Positions 10,228-38,006 of a stretch of DNA of 38,006 nt are shown here, one piece after another (positions within the stretch are counted from its first letter, which is position 1; every line of letters begins with the position of its first letter). The position numbers and the translations under genes were made by a program. The notes below the pieces were generated by a model, which had not been told where the DNA came from, did no database searches, and saw only the letters and a list, made by a program, of their open reading frames with translations. Source of the stretch: an uncultured Lachnospiraceae bacterium (lineage in GTDB: Bacteria; Bacillota; Clostridia; Lachnospirales; Lachnospiraceae); assembly GCA_900316165.1 (NCBI GenBank), contig ONBW01000020.1, forward strand, positions 1-38,006, read 5' to 3'.

Positions 10228-11099
10228 TGGATCAGGCGGAAGGATTGAGAAAAGTTATTAGATCCCAAAACCAGAGGAATGTTTCTTCTGCGAGGGTTAT
10301 AACTATTACAAGCGGTAAAGGTGGAGTAGGAAAATCAAATCTTGCGGTAAATCTTGCGGTTCAGTTCCGCAAAATGGGAAAGAAGGTCATCATCTTCGAT
10401 GCTGATTTTGGTCTCGCTAATGTCGAGGTCATGTTCAATACCCTGCCGAAGCATAATCTCTCAGATGTCATTTTTAAGGGGATTCCTCTTTCAGATATCA
10501 TTACAGAAGGTCCTATGGGAATAGAGTTTATTTCTGCAGGAATAGGTGTTCTTTCTCTGAATGATTTGACTGAAGAGCAGATTCATCTGCTGGTACGTTC
10601 ATTAAACCAGCTTTCGGGACTTTGTGATGTTATTATAGTGGATACCGGAGCAGGTATTTCATCACACGTTATTGATTTTGCGCTGGCATCACCTGAGATA
10701 CTTCTCGTGGCCACTCCTGAACCGAGCTCTATTACGGATTCTTATTCACTGCTTAAGGCTATTTTGTTAAATCCGGTATTTAATAAAAAAGTAACCAGGA
10801 TCAGCCTTGTGGCTAACCGTGTGAAAAATGAATCCGAAGCTGAAAGTGTTTACACAAAGCTTGATGGTGTTGTGTATCAGTTTTTGGAATCACATATCAG
10901 TTTTGCTGGTGGTGTCCCACAGGATCCGAACCTTGAAAAGGCTGTCCGTGCACAGAAAATCGTAAGCATGGCTTATCCGGCCTCAAAAAGTTCGCGTTCA
11001 TTCGAAGATATAGCAAAAAAGATTATGGATTATGATGATGGTGGTAAACCGTGGGGATTTTCCATCAGATCTCTTTTAGACAGTTTATTGAAAAAATAG
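10227..11099 (+). CDS. flhG: MinD-like ATPase FlhG (YlxH)
   Basis: FlhG is a ParA/MinD-family ATPase that stimulates FlhF GTP hydrolysis and controls flagellar number. The 290-residue product begins with the FlhF-activating helix motif DQAEGLR (residues 2-8). The deviant Walker A motif KGGVGKS follows at 31-37, then the FDADFGLANVEVMF Asp segment and the IIVDTGAGISS switch region. A basic hydrophobic C-terminal helix (WGFSIRSLLDSLLKK) resembles a MinD membrane-targeting sequence. ATG 10227 overlaps the flhF stop in TAATG. Pairing with flhF and the intact activation motif make the function secure. Confidence 0.96.
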   Translation: MDQAEGLRKVIRSQNQRNVSSARVITITSGKGGVGKSNLAVNLAVQFRKMGKKVIIFDADFGLANVEVMFNTLPKHNLSDVIFKGIPLSDIITEGPMGIEFISAGIGVLSLNDLTEEQIHLLVRSLNQLSGLCDVIIVDTGAGISSHVIDFALASPEILLVATPEPSSITDSYSLLKAILLNPVFNKKVTRISLVANRVKNESEAESVYTKLDGVVYQFLESHISFAGGVPQDPNLEKAVRAQKIVSMAYPASKSSRSFEDIAKKIMDYDDGGKPWGFSIRSLLDSLLKK

Positions 11100-35696: not shown

Positions 35697-36422
35697 ATGG
35701 TTATAAAAATAGCAATATGTGATGACAGCGAGGAAATGCGGGGACAAATAATAAGAATGCTTGACAGTTACTTCGCTGATAAGGAGCTTAGTTACACAGC
35801 TGATGAATATTGCTGCGGAGAGGATCTGATTTTGTCACTGAAAGAGTATAATCTGATATTCATGGATTATAAGTTTAACAGTACTCAGATGGATGGAATT
35901 GAAGCATCAAGAATTCTGCGCAGCAGACAGTGTTTTTCAACTCTTATTTTTCTGACGAGTTATCCTGATGCGGTTTATGAATCATTTGAGGTGAATGCCT
36001 TCAGATTCCTGATAAAGCCTCTTGATGAAAAAAAGTTCTACGCTGTTATGGACGCCTTTCTTGAGTCAAGGATCAGAACAGTGTTTTTTCATGTGCATTC
36101 AGATGGAACCACGTATTATCTGGATCAGAGAGAAATTTCCTTTGTAGAGGGCAGCGGAAAGGACAGTATAATTCATTTTATTACGAAAACTTCTGAGATT
36201 TTATGTCATGAAACCCTTCTTTCAATAGAAAACAGGATGTCAGGGGATTATTTCTTCAGATGCTACAGGTCTTTTATCATTAATCTGATGCATGTAAAGG
36301 GATATGACAGACATAATGTGTTCATGAAGGATGAAAGTGTAATCCCGCTCAGCAGGAATAAATACAGGGAGCTGATGGCCGTTCATTCTGATTTTTTAGC
36401 TGATCACGCGGGTGAGATATGA
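35697..36422 (+). CDS. LytTR-type response regulator (AgrA/ComE-like)
   Basis: This is a DNA-binding response regulator typical of peptide quorum-sensing and bacteriocin systems. The 241-residue product has a receiver with D9/D10, phospho-acceptor D57 (FMDYKFNSTQMDG), T87 and K107 (LIKPLDEKKF). A LytTR domain follows at about 140-235 (EISFVEGSGKDSIIHFI, then FFRCYRSFIINLMHVKGYD). All phospho-relay residues are intact. ATG 35697 follows AAAGAGG. It is only 21 bases after polC without a terminator, and its stop overlaps the kinase start. A likely binding site lies downstream of the kinase gene at 37723-37752. Confidence 0.93.
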   Translation: MVIKIAICDDSEEMRGQIIRMLDSYFADKELSYTADEYCCGEDLILSLKEYNLIFMDYKFNSTQMDGIEASRILRSRQCFSTLIFLTSYPDAVYESFEVNAFRFLIKPLDEKKFYAVMDAFLESRIRTVFFHVHSDGTTYYLDQREISFVEGSGKDSIIHFITKTSEILCHETLLSIENRMSGDYFFRCYRSFIINLMHVKGYDRHNVFMKDESVIPLSRNKYRELMAVHSDFLADHAGEI

Positions 36423-37714
36423 TTATTACTTTTATTGTTTATACCATCTGGGGTATTTGTGATTTTTTAACTCAGAAAGCTTTTTTTGATGAGTTTGATA
36501 TACTTGGGATTCCAAAGAAGCATACGTACAGGTGCGTCTGGGCAGTTTATTATTTCACTGTGACATACCTGTACTGGTTCAGCAAATATCAGGGGTACAG
36601 GGTTGTATTTAACTGCACATACTTCGCATACTATCTGCGTATAGTACCATTTATCTGGAGCGCTTTTGGCTTTAACCTGAAAGTGCCTGCGATCTCGTTT
36701 TTCTACGAGCAGGTGGAAGCAGTACTGGCGTCAAGTCTTGCCATTGTGTCCATTCTTGTTTTGAATTCTAAAGCGTCTCCTGGATTTCTTGATGATTTCT
36801 TTGCTTCGGTTGTATCCTTATTCTTTCTGATATTTATAAAAGTATTATCACGATTGAACAGAAGAAAGGTTCTTGAGAGCTGTATGGCAGATCTTTCTTT
36901 CTGGGATTATCTGCTTATGATAGTTGTTATTTATATGGTGGGCAGTTTTGAGACTGATGTCTGTCTCGGCTACCATTCGATCATGCATACCAGAGCAGTC
37001 TCTGTTCTGGCGATGATACTGGTCATTCTTGTCTGCGGACGACTTATAATAATAAACGAGCAGAAGCTGTCACATTCCAAGGTAATAAAGCTTCTGGATG
37101 ATCAGATGCAAAGGCAGCTGTCTTTCTACAGGCAGGTGAGTGAAAAGGATGATGAGCTGAGAGAGTACAGACATGATACTATTAATCATCTGATTGTGAT
37201 AGATTCGATGATCACAGACGAGAGACTGTCTGAGGCCAGTGATTATATACACAGCCTGATGATGGGACTTAAAAGTACTAAGAGAACCTTTTATACAGGC
37301 AGCTATATCGCCGACGCTATTTTAAGCACCAAAACTTCTGAAGCTGCAAAAGAAGGAATAAGGATAGAATTCGCGGGAAGAATACCATGTGAAAAAATAA
37401 AGGATCTTGACATGGTTATAATTTTTTCAAATCTTATCGACAATGCAGTTGAAGCCTGTGAAAAGGTGTGTTCAGACAGAATTATCACTGTAGACTCTGT
37501 AAATAAAGATGATTTCTGGATCCTTACTATCAGAAATCCTCTGTCAGAGCCCGTACAAATAAAGGATAACCATATAAAGACAACTAAATCAGACAAAAAG
37601 CTTCACGGCATCGGAATAATGGATGTTGAAAAAGTAATTGACCGATACGATGGAATGGTCAGATTTTTTTCAGAAAATAATGAATTTACAGTAAGGGTTA
37701 CGGTTAAAATGTGA
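36419..37714 (+). CDS. GHKL-type sensor histidine kinase
   Basis: The 431-residue product has about five or six membrane helices in the first 213 residues, a linker helix, then a kinase core. The phospho-acceptor H252 is in EYRHDTINHL, the N box with N342 is in SNLIDNAVEACE, and a glycine box HGIGIMDV is at 396-403. This is the AgrC/ComD/NatK layout, in which the membrane part senses a peptide or another small signal. ATG 36419 overlaps the regulator stop (ATGA), so the pair is co-expressed. No agrB or agrD gene is visible in the 290 bases after it. The signal is unknown. Confidence 0.92.
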   Translation: MIITFIVYTIWGICDFLTQKAFFDEFDILGIPKKHTYRCVWAVYYFTVTYLYWFSKYQGYRVVFNCTYFAYYLRIVPFIWSAFGFNLKVPAISFFYEQVEAVLASSLAIVSILVLNSKASPGFLDDFFASVVSLFFLIFIKVLSRLNRRKVLESCMADLSFWDYLLMIVVIYMVGSFETDVCLGYHSIMHTRAVSVLAMILVILVCGRLIIINEQKLSHSKVIKLLDDQMQRQLSFYRQVSEKDDELREYRHDTINHLIVIDSMITDERLSEASDYIHSLMMGLKSTKRTFYTGSYIADAILSTKTSEAAKEGIRIEFAGRIPCEKIKDLDMVIIFSNLIDNAVEACEKVCSDRIITVDSVNKDDFWILTIRNPLSEPVQIKDNHIKTTKSDKKLHGIGIMDVEKVIDRYDGMVRFFSENNEFTVRVTVKM

Positions 37715-37722
37715 GGACGTTT

Positions 37723-37752
37723 ACAATTTATTCCTATTTTTGAACAGTTTAT
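37723..37752 (+). promoter_or_regulatory. AgrA-like LytTR operator (two direct repeats, 21-bp period)
   Basis: ACAATTTAT (37723-37731) and ACAGTTTAT (37744-37752) are separated by 12 bases. The match extends to 12 bases (ACARTTTATTCC) in both copies. The known AgrA/LytTR operator is two nine-base direct repeats of the type (T/A)(A/C)(C/A)GTTN(A/G)(T/G) spaced 12-13 bases, and the second copy fits fully while the first has one mismatch. It lies next to a LytTR regulator gene and just upstream of a promoter with a poor -35. Binding by that regulator is inference. Confidence 0.6.
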
Positions 37753-37758
37753 TCCTTT

Positions 37759-37790
37759 TTGCTTTTTTTTTCGTCATAATGTGTTATGAT
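37759..37790 (+). promoter_or_regulatory. Activator-type extended -10 promoter
   Basis: TATGAT at 37785-37790 is preceded by TGT (37782-37784), an extended -10. The nearest -35-like element is TTGCTT at 37759-37764 with a 20-base spacer made largely of T. Long-spacer, weak -35 promoters are typical of AgrA-activated promoters, and the LytTR-like repeats end six bases upstream. Transcription would start near 37797. Confidence 0.55.
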
Positions 37791-37826
37791 AGCTTTAGTG
37801 GAAGTGCACGAACCACGATAAGCGGA

Positions 37827-37939
37827 AGGAGGATGATGAGTATGTGGCAATGGCCGTTATTTTACTGATGAGATGTAACATCGAATTAACCAGAAAAGAG
37901 TTCGAGGAAGCCTCCTGTATAATATAAAGTGTCAGGGGG
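37827..37939 (+). promoter_or_regulatory. Possible RNA switch that hides or frees the ribosome site
   Basis: CCTCCT at 37911-37916 can pair with the AGGAGG ribosome site at 37827-37832. The same segment (CCTCCTG, 37911-37917) can instead pair with CAGGGGG at 37933-37939 over seven pairs (one U-G) with a 15-base loop. The two pairings exclude each other, so translation of the micro-frame could be switched. This is base-pairing logic only. Confidence 0.3.
37842..37868 (+). CDS. Candidate aromatic micropeptide frame (MWQWPLFY)
   Basis: A nine-base purine site, GGAAGGAGG at 37824-37832, precedes ATG 37842 with nine bases of spacing from the GGAGG core. The frame encodes MWQWPLFY and stops at TGA 37866-37868. 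In-frame ATGs at 37833 and 37836 would add MMS or MS but lie too close to the site. Four of eight residues are aromatic. It could be a leader peptide that senses aromatic amino-acid supply, or a very short secreted or imported signal peptide. It could also be chance, with the site serving GTG 37844, which opens a 27-codon frame in another phase ending at 37927. Confidence 0.35.
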   Translation: MWQWPLFY

Positions 37940-37968
37940 TTGACATATAAAAATACCTCAAGTAGATT
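37940..37968 (+). promoter_or_regulatory. Second candidate sigma-A promoter
   Basis: TTGACA at 37940-37945 is a perfect -35. After 17 bases TAGATT at 37963-37968 matches the -10 at four of six positions. Transcription would start near 37975 and run off the window into an unseen gene. Confidence 0.45.
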
Positions 37969-37975
37969 TGAATCA

Positions 37976-37997
37976 TTACTGACCTGGACGTTAGTAA
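37976..37997. repeat. Inverted repeat downstream of the second promoter
   Basis: TTACTGAC (37976-37983) and GTTAGTAA (37990-37997) form an inverted repeat with one mismatch (G-U in RNA) around CTGGAC. It begins at about +2 relative to the start predicted from the TTGACA promoter. It could be an operator for a repressor or a leader hairpin. No U-run follows within the window. Confidence 0.4.
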
Positions 37998-38006
37998 AAT
38001 TCAAAA

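Follow-up and report, generated by a model that had tools for sequence, protein, structure and literature searches.

The window analysed here, a stretch of 38,006 nt that makes up the whole of contig C98 in the genome of an uncultured Lachnospiraceae bacterium (2.59 Mb in 117 contigs, 91% complete), carries near its right-hand end a two-component system, a predicted operator and promoter, and a reading frame of eight codons, MWQWPLFY (Table 1). The response regulator gene starts 22 bases past the stop of a polC-type gene and stands in tandem with the gene of a GHKL membrane kinase whose N-terminal half, as judged by hydropathy, contains several hydrophobic segments; by Pfam, this is the pairing of LytTR regulator and kinase found in systems of the Pln/Blp type, while models of AgrC and AgrA gave weak matches to the pair, far below their cut-offs. 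Since the bases from 37908 onward belong to one end of an IS110-type insertion element, a boundary placed by an alignment of seven copies, the native sequence 3' of the micro-ORF is absent from the window. The same end is common to six other contigs, recurring at the ends of C115, C94, C27, C25 and C17 and inside C77, where it is accompanied by a transposase that matches DEDD_Tnp_IS110; the element thus interrupts the assembly at several places, in the window right after the micro-ORF. A role for the micro-ORF as leader of the transposase was weighed and rejected. No Rfam family matched between 35600 and 38006 (E up to 1).

Table 1. Features of the window and micro-ORFs of related loci
Feature	Location	Strand	Basis or remark
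Response regulator, receiver + LytTR, 241 aa	35697..36422	+	Pfam LytTR 2.8e-16, Response_reg 1.9e-8
GHKL sensor kinase, 431 aa	36419..37714	+	Pfam HATPase_c_5 2.8e-26
Predicted LytTR operator, direct half-sites ACAATTTATTCC / ACAGTTTATTCC, 21 bp period	37723..37755	+	AgrA/Pln class
Extended -10 element TGTTATGAT	37782..37790	+	hexamer 37 bp behind second half-site, no good -35
Predicted 5' leader with Shine-Dalgarno GGAAGGAGG	37797..37841	+	AGTGGAAGTGCAC also in C105; start site inferred
Micro-ORF MWQWPLFY, 8 codons + stop	37842..37868	+	identical peptide in C105; kin Trp-rich micro-ORFs
IS110-type insertion element end	37908..38006	.	last 99 bases, contig end
Micro-ORF MWLWPWLP	L097 9002-9028		pRUMAL03; Shine-Dalgarno-like site, behind 16/16 operator
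Micro-ORF MQDWFDWWGW	L097 5735-5703	minus	Shine-Dalgarno-like site, behind 16/16 operator
Micro-ORF MVGYWWDIFHG	L071 1181-1216		G374; Shine-Dalgarno-like site, behind 15/16 operator

The two nine-base repeats spaced 21 bp apart that the initial annotation had described are present as ACAATTTAT (37723-37731) and ACAGTTTAT (37744-37752), and so is its extended -10 element with a poor -35 (TATGAT at 37785-37790, with no recognisable -35). Because the -35 is absent, a simple sigma-70 scan did not list the promoter, as expected. When operators are scored as two half-sites TT[TC][AG][CT]T[CA][CT] at 21 bp, with a maximum of 16, the window reaches 16/16 at a single place on its two strands, and paired 9-mers with up to three mismatches occur in it once, with no mismatch, against a mean of 0.20 per shuffle; a search of the whole genome for double sites returned 14 matches (one exact, 13 at three mismatches) against 15 in a reversed control. 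The Pln/Blp arrangement of paired 9-bp direct repeats, separated by 12 bp and placed upstream of a -10 element, is found here and at six kin promoters; it is the layout described for PlnC/PlnD (PMC2714321). The proposed operator class, and its link to this family of LytTR regulators, gain support from comparison, the same operator standing beside kin pairs.

Behind this promoter the annotated Shine-Dalgarno site GGAAGGAGG (37824-37832) and eight-codon frame were both recovered. The frame reads ATG TGG CAA TGG CCG TTA TTT TAC TGA and encodes neither Cys nor Ser. In-frame ATG codons two and three codons upstream would allow MSMWQWPLFY or MMSMWQWPLFY, and a 42-codon frame that opens with TTG (37740-37868) and has a hydrophobic N-terminus ends at the same stop, its start lying within the operator, upstream of the predicted start of the transcript. 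Among ATG frames of 7-12 codons with at least two Trp and a Shine-Dalgarno-like site, the window holds only MWQWPLFY and its in-frame start variants. A weak terminator-like hairpin overlaps 37844-37857, and a search of the leader against phages and plasmids gave no match.

A second copy of the micro-ORF lies on contig C105 of the same genome (minus strand), which begins at the same promoter and runs through TATGAT, AGTGGAAGTGCAC, leader and micro-ORF, the position of the operator falling past the contig end. Its frame, ATG TGG CAG TGG CCA TTA TTT TAC TAA, encodes the identical peptide, and all three differences in frame and stop are silent, an outcome reached by 87 of 78,975 triple single-base changes of the frame (0.1%) and by 41 of 2,925 triples restricted to transitions (1.4%), in a comparison that covers 27 nt. 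From AGTGGAAGTGCAC to the start codon, the leader has diverged far more between the two copies than the frame has. An in-frame stop precedes the C105 start codon by 12 nt, with no earlier start, and the 42-codon TTG frame is not open there; the eight-codon frame is thus the conserved one. Directly after its stop comes a predicted hairpin, and downstream follow a lipoprotein-like ORF (469 aa), a permease-like ORF of 658 aa and an ABC ATPase, the last being the only one of these three large ORFs with a Pfam match (ABC_tran/AAA-type families). No RiPP maturase was recognised among the three by Pfam, nor any MccB-type adenylating enzyme in C105; the permease and one other of its large ORFs match no Pfam family. 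The absence of a visible exporter remarked upon in the initial annotation was therefore a product of the cut made by the insertion element and contig end, for the C105 frame precedes an ABC ATPase and a permease-like ORF, and the kin clusters described below hold ABC genes. A further possible small ORF in C105 is MERKTTILMKIAAPVLLE.

The regulator and kinase have relatives within the same genome. A paralogous pair with its own operator upstream (C68 3280-4323 and C61 13617-13793) shares 45% identity with the window regulator and 40% with the window kinase, the C68 kinase being truncated by the contig end; what lies beyond, perhaps another micro-ORF, is outside the contig. A decayed 3' remnant of a kinase gene, with one internal TAA and 46% identity to the window kinase, lies at C74 70633-70845 (L047), and the remnant of a related kinase 3' end is found further on in C105, which together suggest that the family has duplicated and decayed here. 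Four of 12 other genomes of the genus contain kinase matches (best 4.9e-27), which are taken as paralogues. At 1e-50 the window kinase matched two of 397 genomes, its own included; the other, G374, belongs to another genus of the same family and carries two pairs.

A plasmid search with the window kinase led to pRUMAL03 of Ruminococcus albus 7 (locus L097), whose regulator is 32% identical over 232 aa and whose kinase is 30% identical over 70% of its length. Here the LytTR regulator and GHKL kinase are followed by two huazacin-family RiPP precursor genes, radical SAM genes and ABC genes, and three 16/16 operators lie after the kinase, before a micro-ORF (MWLWPWLP) and divergent from the regulator. 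The divergent operator precedes a second micro-ORF, MQDWFDWWGW, and then an ABC ATPase fragment, so that two candidate signals stand beside one kinase. No terminator-like site was found between MWLWPWLP and the RiPP genes.

Both kinase-regulator pairs of G374 directly precede RiPP-type genes. At the first (L071), a 15/16 operator, TATAAT, the micro-ORF MVGYWWDIFHG and a DUF5975 ORF, which starts about 20 nt past the micro-ORF stop, stand directly before kinase and regulator. Because a hairpin resembling a terminator (1612-1641) and then a promoter-like site (1670-1699) intervene, the idea of a promoter shared by micro-ORF and kinase was dropped; the micro-ORF/DUF5975 unit and the kinase are probably neighbours on separate transcripts. 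A second operator (16/16) lies after the regulator and before a Gly/Cys-rich, RiPP-like gene of 55 aa, for whose product no NCBIfam match was found, and downstream are genes for an ABC ATPase, a radical SAM/SPASM enzyme and an ABC exporter. At the second locus (L072, G374:C123) a related pair is followed by a SagD-type YcaO protein; a repeat-containing Cys-rich peptide ORF is seen at 10394-10723, and a putative operator has, by eye, an apparent spacing of 20 bp. Small ORFs also occur behind the shared operators, namely the DUF5975 ORF (L071:1237-1626) and, as a weak match below cut-off, a DUF5085-like ORF (L097:8136-8597); such ORFs could possibly encode an accessory factor.

Taken together with the window site and a 16/16 site shortly before the gene of the C68 regulator (in L044, with half-sites from 2479 and a start codon at 2562), these loci provide seven promoters, in all of which the -10 hexamer lies 36-38 bp past the start of the second half-site. 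Four of the seven operators drive Trp-rich frames of 8-11 codons, MWQWPLFY, MWLWPWLP, MQDWFDWWGW and MVGYWWDIFHG, each with a Shine-Dalgarno-like site and each 73-94 nt from the second half-site; the other three, before the C68 regulator, the L071 RiPP-like gene and the pRUMAL03 stretch toward the DUF5085-like ORF, have no Trp-rich micro-ORF. Upstream in-frame stops, with no earlier ATG, GTG or TTG, lie 18 nt before MWLWPWLP, 51 nt before MQDWFDWWGW and 60 nt before MVGYWWDIFHG, and as with the C105 stop (12-60 nt in all) this means that these frames are not the tails of longer precursors. Measured as the share of positions with such a micro-ORF 70-100 nt downstream, the background is 0.00009 for control kinase loci (328,350 bases over both strands), 0.0005 for the window, 0.0015 for L071 and 0.0021 for pRUMAL03. 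Since the window site was given beforehand and the L071 micro-ORF promoter was recognised through its micro-ORF, neither counts as independent, and independent support comes from two of the five remaining kin operators, which the score by itself had picked out, or from two of eight operator matches if the other 16/16 sites are included, which are in L053 (a low-complexity run with two overlapping matches) and in L158 (a kinase locus from the class search). The idea that the micro-frame is conserved has thus held up, both in the C105 copy, with its silent changes, and in the module of operator, promoter and micro-frame beside related pairs, both in R. albus and in another genus of the same family as the window.

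We consider the best explanation, with a probability of roughly 55%, to be a gene for a leaderless micro-peptide, probably a pheromone, that its own two-component system switches on, a reading founded on the anatomy of the locus, the recurrence of the module, silent-only divergence and the lack of any longer precursor in the kin copies. The GHKL/LytTR pair (35697-37714) would be a peptide-responsive system, its nearest kin standing beside RiPP clusters; once phosphorylated, the regulator would bind the two half-sites and activate the -35-less promoter, yielding a transcript that bears the eight-codon gene. Translation would give N-formyl-MWQWPLFY or its deformylated form, at final size and with no leader to cleave, and its most likely role is that of an autoinducer. 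The peptide would then leave the cell, perhaps via the ABC transporter encoded downstream in C105, and act on the kinase as its signal, which would complete a positive loop that also drives the linked transporter or RiPP genes.

More tentative is the broader proposal of a class of leaderless, directly encoded Trp-rich pheromones of 8-11 residues, each with a LytTR-activated promoter dedicated to it, sensed by an adjacent GHKL kinase and governing RiPP and ABC-transporter genes in rumen and gut Clostridia. Gene finders would miss such a class because its genes are only 27-36 nt long, and no report of such micro-ORFs was found among the matches listed in the open-licence literature. GHKL/LytTR pairs appear orphan where neither an AgrD nor a double-glycine precursor can be seen; if their signals are genes of 8-11 codons, missing ligands could be sought behind a recognisable operator. 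If the proposal is true, a synthetic octapeptide might switch on silent RiPP clusters, such as the huazacin-type cluster on pRUMAL03, and a peptide signal made at final size without a leader would raise the question of how it exits the cell.

Several observations count against the pheromone reading. The kin pair at L072 has neither a 16/16 operator nor a Trp-rich micro-ORF; three of the seven operators lack a Trp-rich frame behind them; homologues of the C105 permease at four loci (G171, two in G344, G209) have no Trp-rich micro-ORF upstream; and the G374 hairpin before the kinase does not support co-transcription of micro-ORF and receptor there. Searches for further MWxWP micro-ORFs point the same way, with none in the module layout beyond these loci in the collections scanned. 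Within the family (299 genomes, up to three mismatches) such frames occurred in seven genomes including the source genome, the other six having 2-3 mismatches and an upstream operator score of at most 13/16, and across the class in 10 of 245 genomes, again including the source, with a pattern that requires GGAG and therefore misses C105 itself; the nine others lacked the operator layout. The 18 exact stretches in genome_contigs belong to other taxa and were judged chance from taxon and upstream sequence, the three from Halobacillus having one common upstream sequence, and three scans of viral_contigs returned 0, 1 and 23 stretches, all 24 without the operator layout and the 23 scoring at most 13/16. 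One candidate, MWQWQFYS of G128 (L021, G128:C22:7909-7935, minus), lies in a 28-codon open frame without Shine-Dalgarno site or operator and is probably chance.

R1, a model built on the sequences of the seven promoters alone, found all seven training sites again, at 34.9-48.3 bits, and no other site in 66 loci (384,134 bases) exceeded 13.4 bits; its two best sites in the source genome, in the window (34.9) and at the C68 regulator promoter (44.3 bits), are both training sites. Applied to 355 genomes, it gave many weak sites, in 255 genomes at E<=0.5 with the source included, the best others reaching about 20-26 bits and several having clear paired half-sites. A five-row kinase profile proved too generic in 265 genomes of the class (84 genomes at 1e-30, the source included), and the scan of its matches covered 29 newly fetched loci. 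In the R1 follow-up, for which 29 new loci were re-scored, 21 of these read downstream and five enlarged, no further ATG frame of 8-11 codons with two Trp stood behind an operator. One locus (L190, G176:C8, minus 7751) has, directly after a LytTR/GHKL pair and behind half-sites spaced 20 bp, a 19-codon frame, MYFSTGESLWKLLKELFGW, a longer and amphipathic-looking cousin of the module, and G022 has an operator-like site directly after such a pair and before an 84-aa ORF. The layout of pair, operator and short or target gene looks wider than the micro-ORFs themselves.

The main rival to the pheromone reading, unlikely in our estimation, is a cis-acting leader peptide with no life outside the ribosome, whose translation, or stalling at W/P-rich codons, would tune the downstream ABC, RiPP or DUF genes. 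Short leader frames of this kind occur elsewhere, and the gene order would suit one: the C105 micro-ORF precedes transporter genes with a predicted hairpin just past its stop, the G374 micro-ORF is closely followed by its DUF5975 ORF in a unit closed by a terminator-like hairpin ahead of the kinase, and on pRUMAL03 no terminator-like site separates MWLWPWLP from the RiPP genes. Yet in R. albus no ORF of at least 60 aa starts between MWLWPWLP and the RiPP gene some 480 nt on, MQDWFDWWGW is followed only by the ABC ATPase fragment, about 340 nt on, and the four peptides, Trp-rich as they are, differ in sequence, unlike a single stalling motif.

Less probable still is that the micro-ORF yields a bioactive peptide, ultrashort and without a leader, of RiPP or bacteriocin-like kind, that is no signal and that the linked ABC system exports or resists. 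Microcin C, with its precursor of seven codons, offers a precedent, and reiterative translation is possible for frames of 2-8 codons (PMC6495379); RiPP maturases are moreover present in kin clusters. Those of R. albus and G374, however, already contain precursors of ordinary size, and C105 has no recognised maturase, the downstream side of the window being cut off. A poorer account again, and a very improbable one, regards the micro-ORFs as incidental, with downstream genes or an RNA as the output, and puts silent differences and Trp richness down to chance or RNA structure. The shortness of the 27-nt comparison and the weak hairpin within the window frame lend this some weight, against which stand the frames found at 73-94 nt behind four of seven operators where the background is 0.0001-0.002, the Shine-Dalgarno-like sites in four of four and the silence of three changes in three. 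Hardly credible, lastly, is that MWQWPLFY forms the C-terminus of a longer precursor, in the way that ComS carries its pheromone, for although the TTG frame is open in the window and ends in WQWPLFY, its start codon falls within the operator, ahead of where the transcript is predicted to begin, and its counterparts are stopped 12 nt before the ATG in C105 and 18-60 nt upstream in three kin frames.

Set beside known systems, the pheromone reading borrows from several. With Agr (AgrBDCA) the window shares a GHKL kinase and a LytTR regulator, and in this respect, that of the kinase and regulator fold, its first description as Agr-like stands; the remainder does not, since no AgrB (PF04647) was found in the 91% complete genome, by a search of unproven sensitivity that in a control matched one of 14 genomes, below cut-off. 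A Trp-rich micro-ORF takes the place of the AgrD precursor; no Cys/Ser thiolactone or lactone precursor of AgrD type was encountered, and the sole longer frame, of 42 codons from TTG, is interrupted in C105. Membership of Agr was rejected because that search found no AgrB and the frame has neither Cys nor Ser.

No LytTR operator is known for microcin C, an antibiotic made with an adenylating enzyme of which none was recognised here. Its likeness to the window lies in a functional, very short peptide gene and a role for formyl-Met: even very short frames can be translated efficiently, mccA having seven codons that are read reiteratively, and the formyl group matters for its product (PMC6495379). 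The active streptococcal pheromones of the SHP and ComS/XIP kinds are C-terminal peptides of about eight residues, the ComS examples carrying WW, and the ABC transporter PptAB exports SHPs and contributes to ComS signalling (PMC5167397). MQDWFDWWGW and MVGYWWDIFHG contain WW as well. The precursors of SHP and ComS, however, number 17-32 residues in the examples given there (PMC5167397), whereas about the final size is encoded here, and they act on Rgg/ComR; no adjacent cytosolic receptor of that type was encountered, the upstream neighbours being a LytTR regulator and a GHKL membrane kinase.

In the Pln/Blp systems the induction peptide is cut from a longer double-glycine precursor. In the window and its kin a frame of 8-11 codons takes its place, in which a leader is absent, and no exporter of peptidase type was recognised; a double-glycine precursor with a peptidase ABC exporter was encountered neither in C105 nor in the window, whose downstream side is cut off, and eight codons leave no room for a leader. 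PlnA-PlnB-PlnCD of Lactobacillus plantarum otherwise pairs a LytTR regulator with a membrane kinase, as in the window, and in both systems a tandem pair of 9-bp repeats, separated by 12 bp, immediately precedes the promoter (PMC2714321). Both are alike, too, in the control of peptide clusters and in a signal gene that lies near the kinase and regulator.
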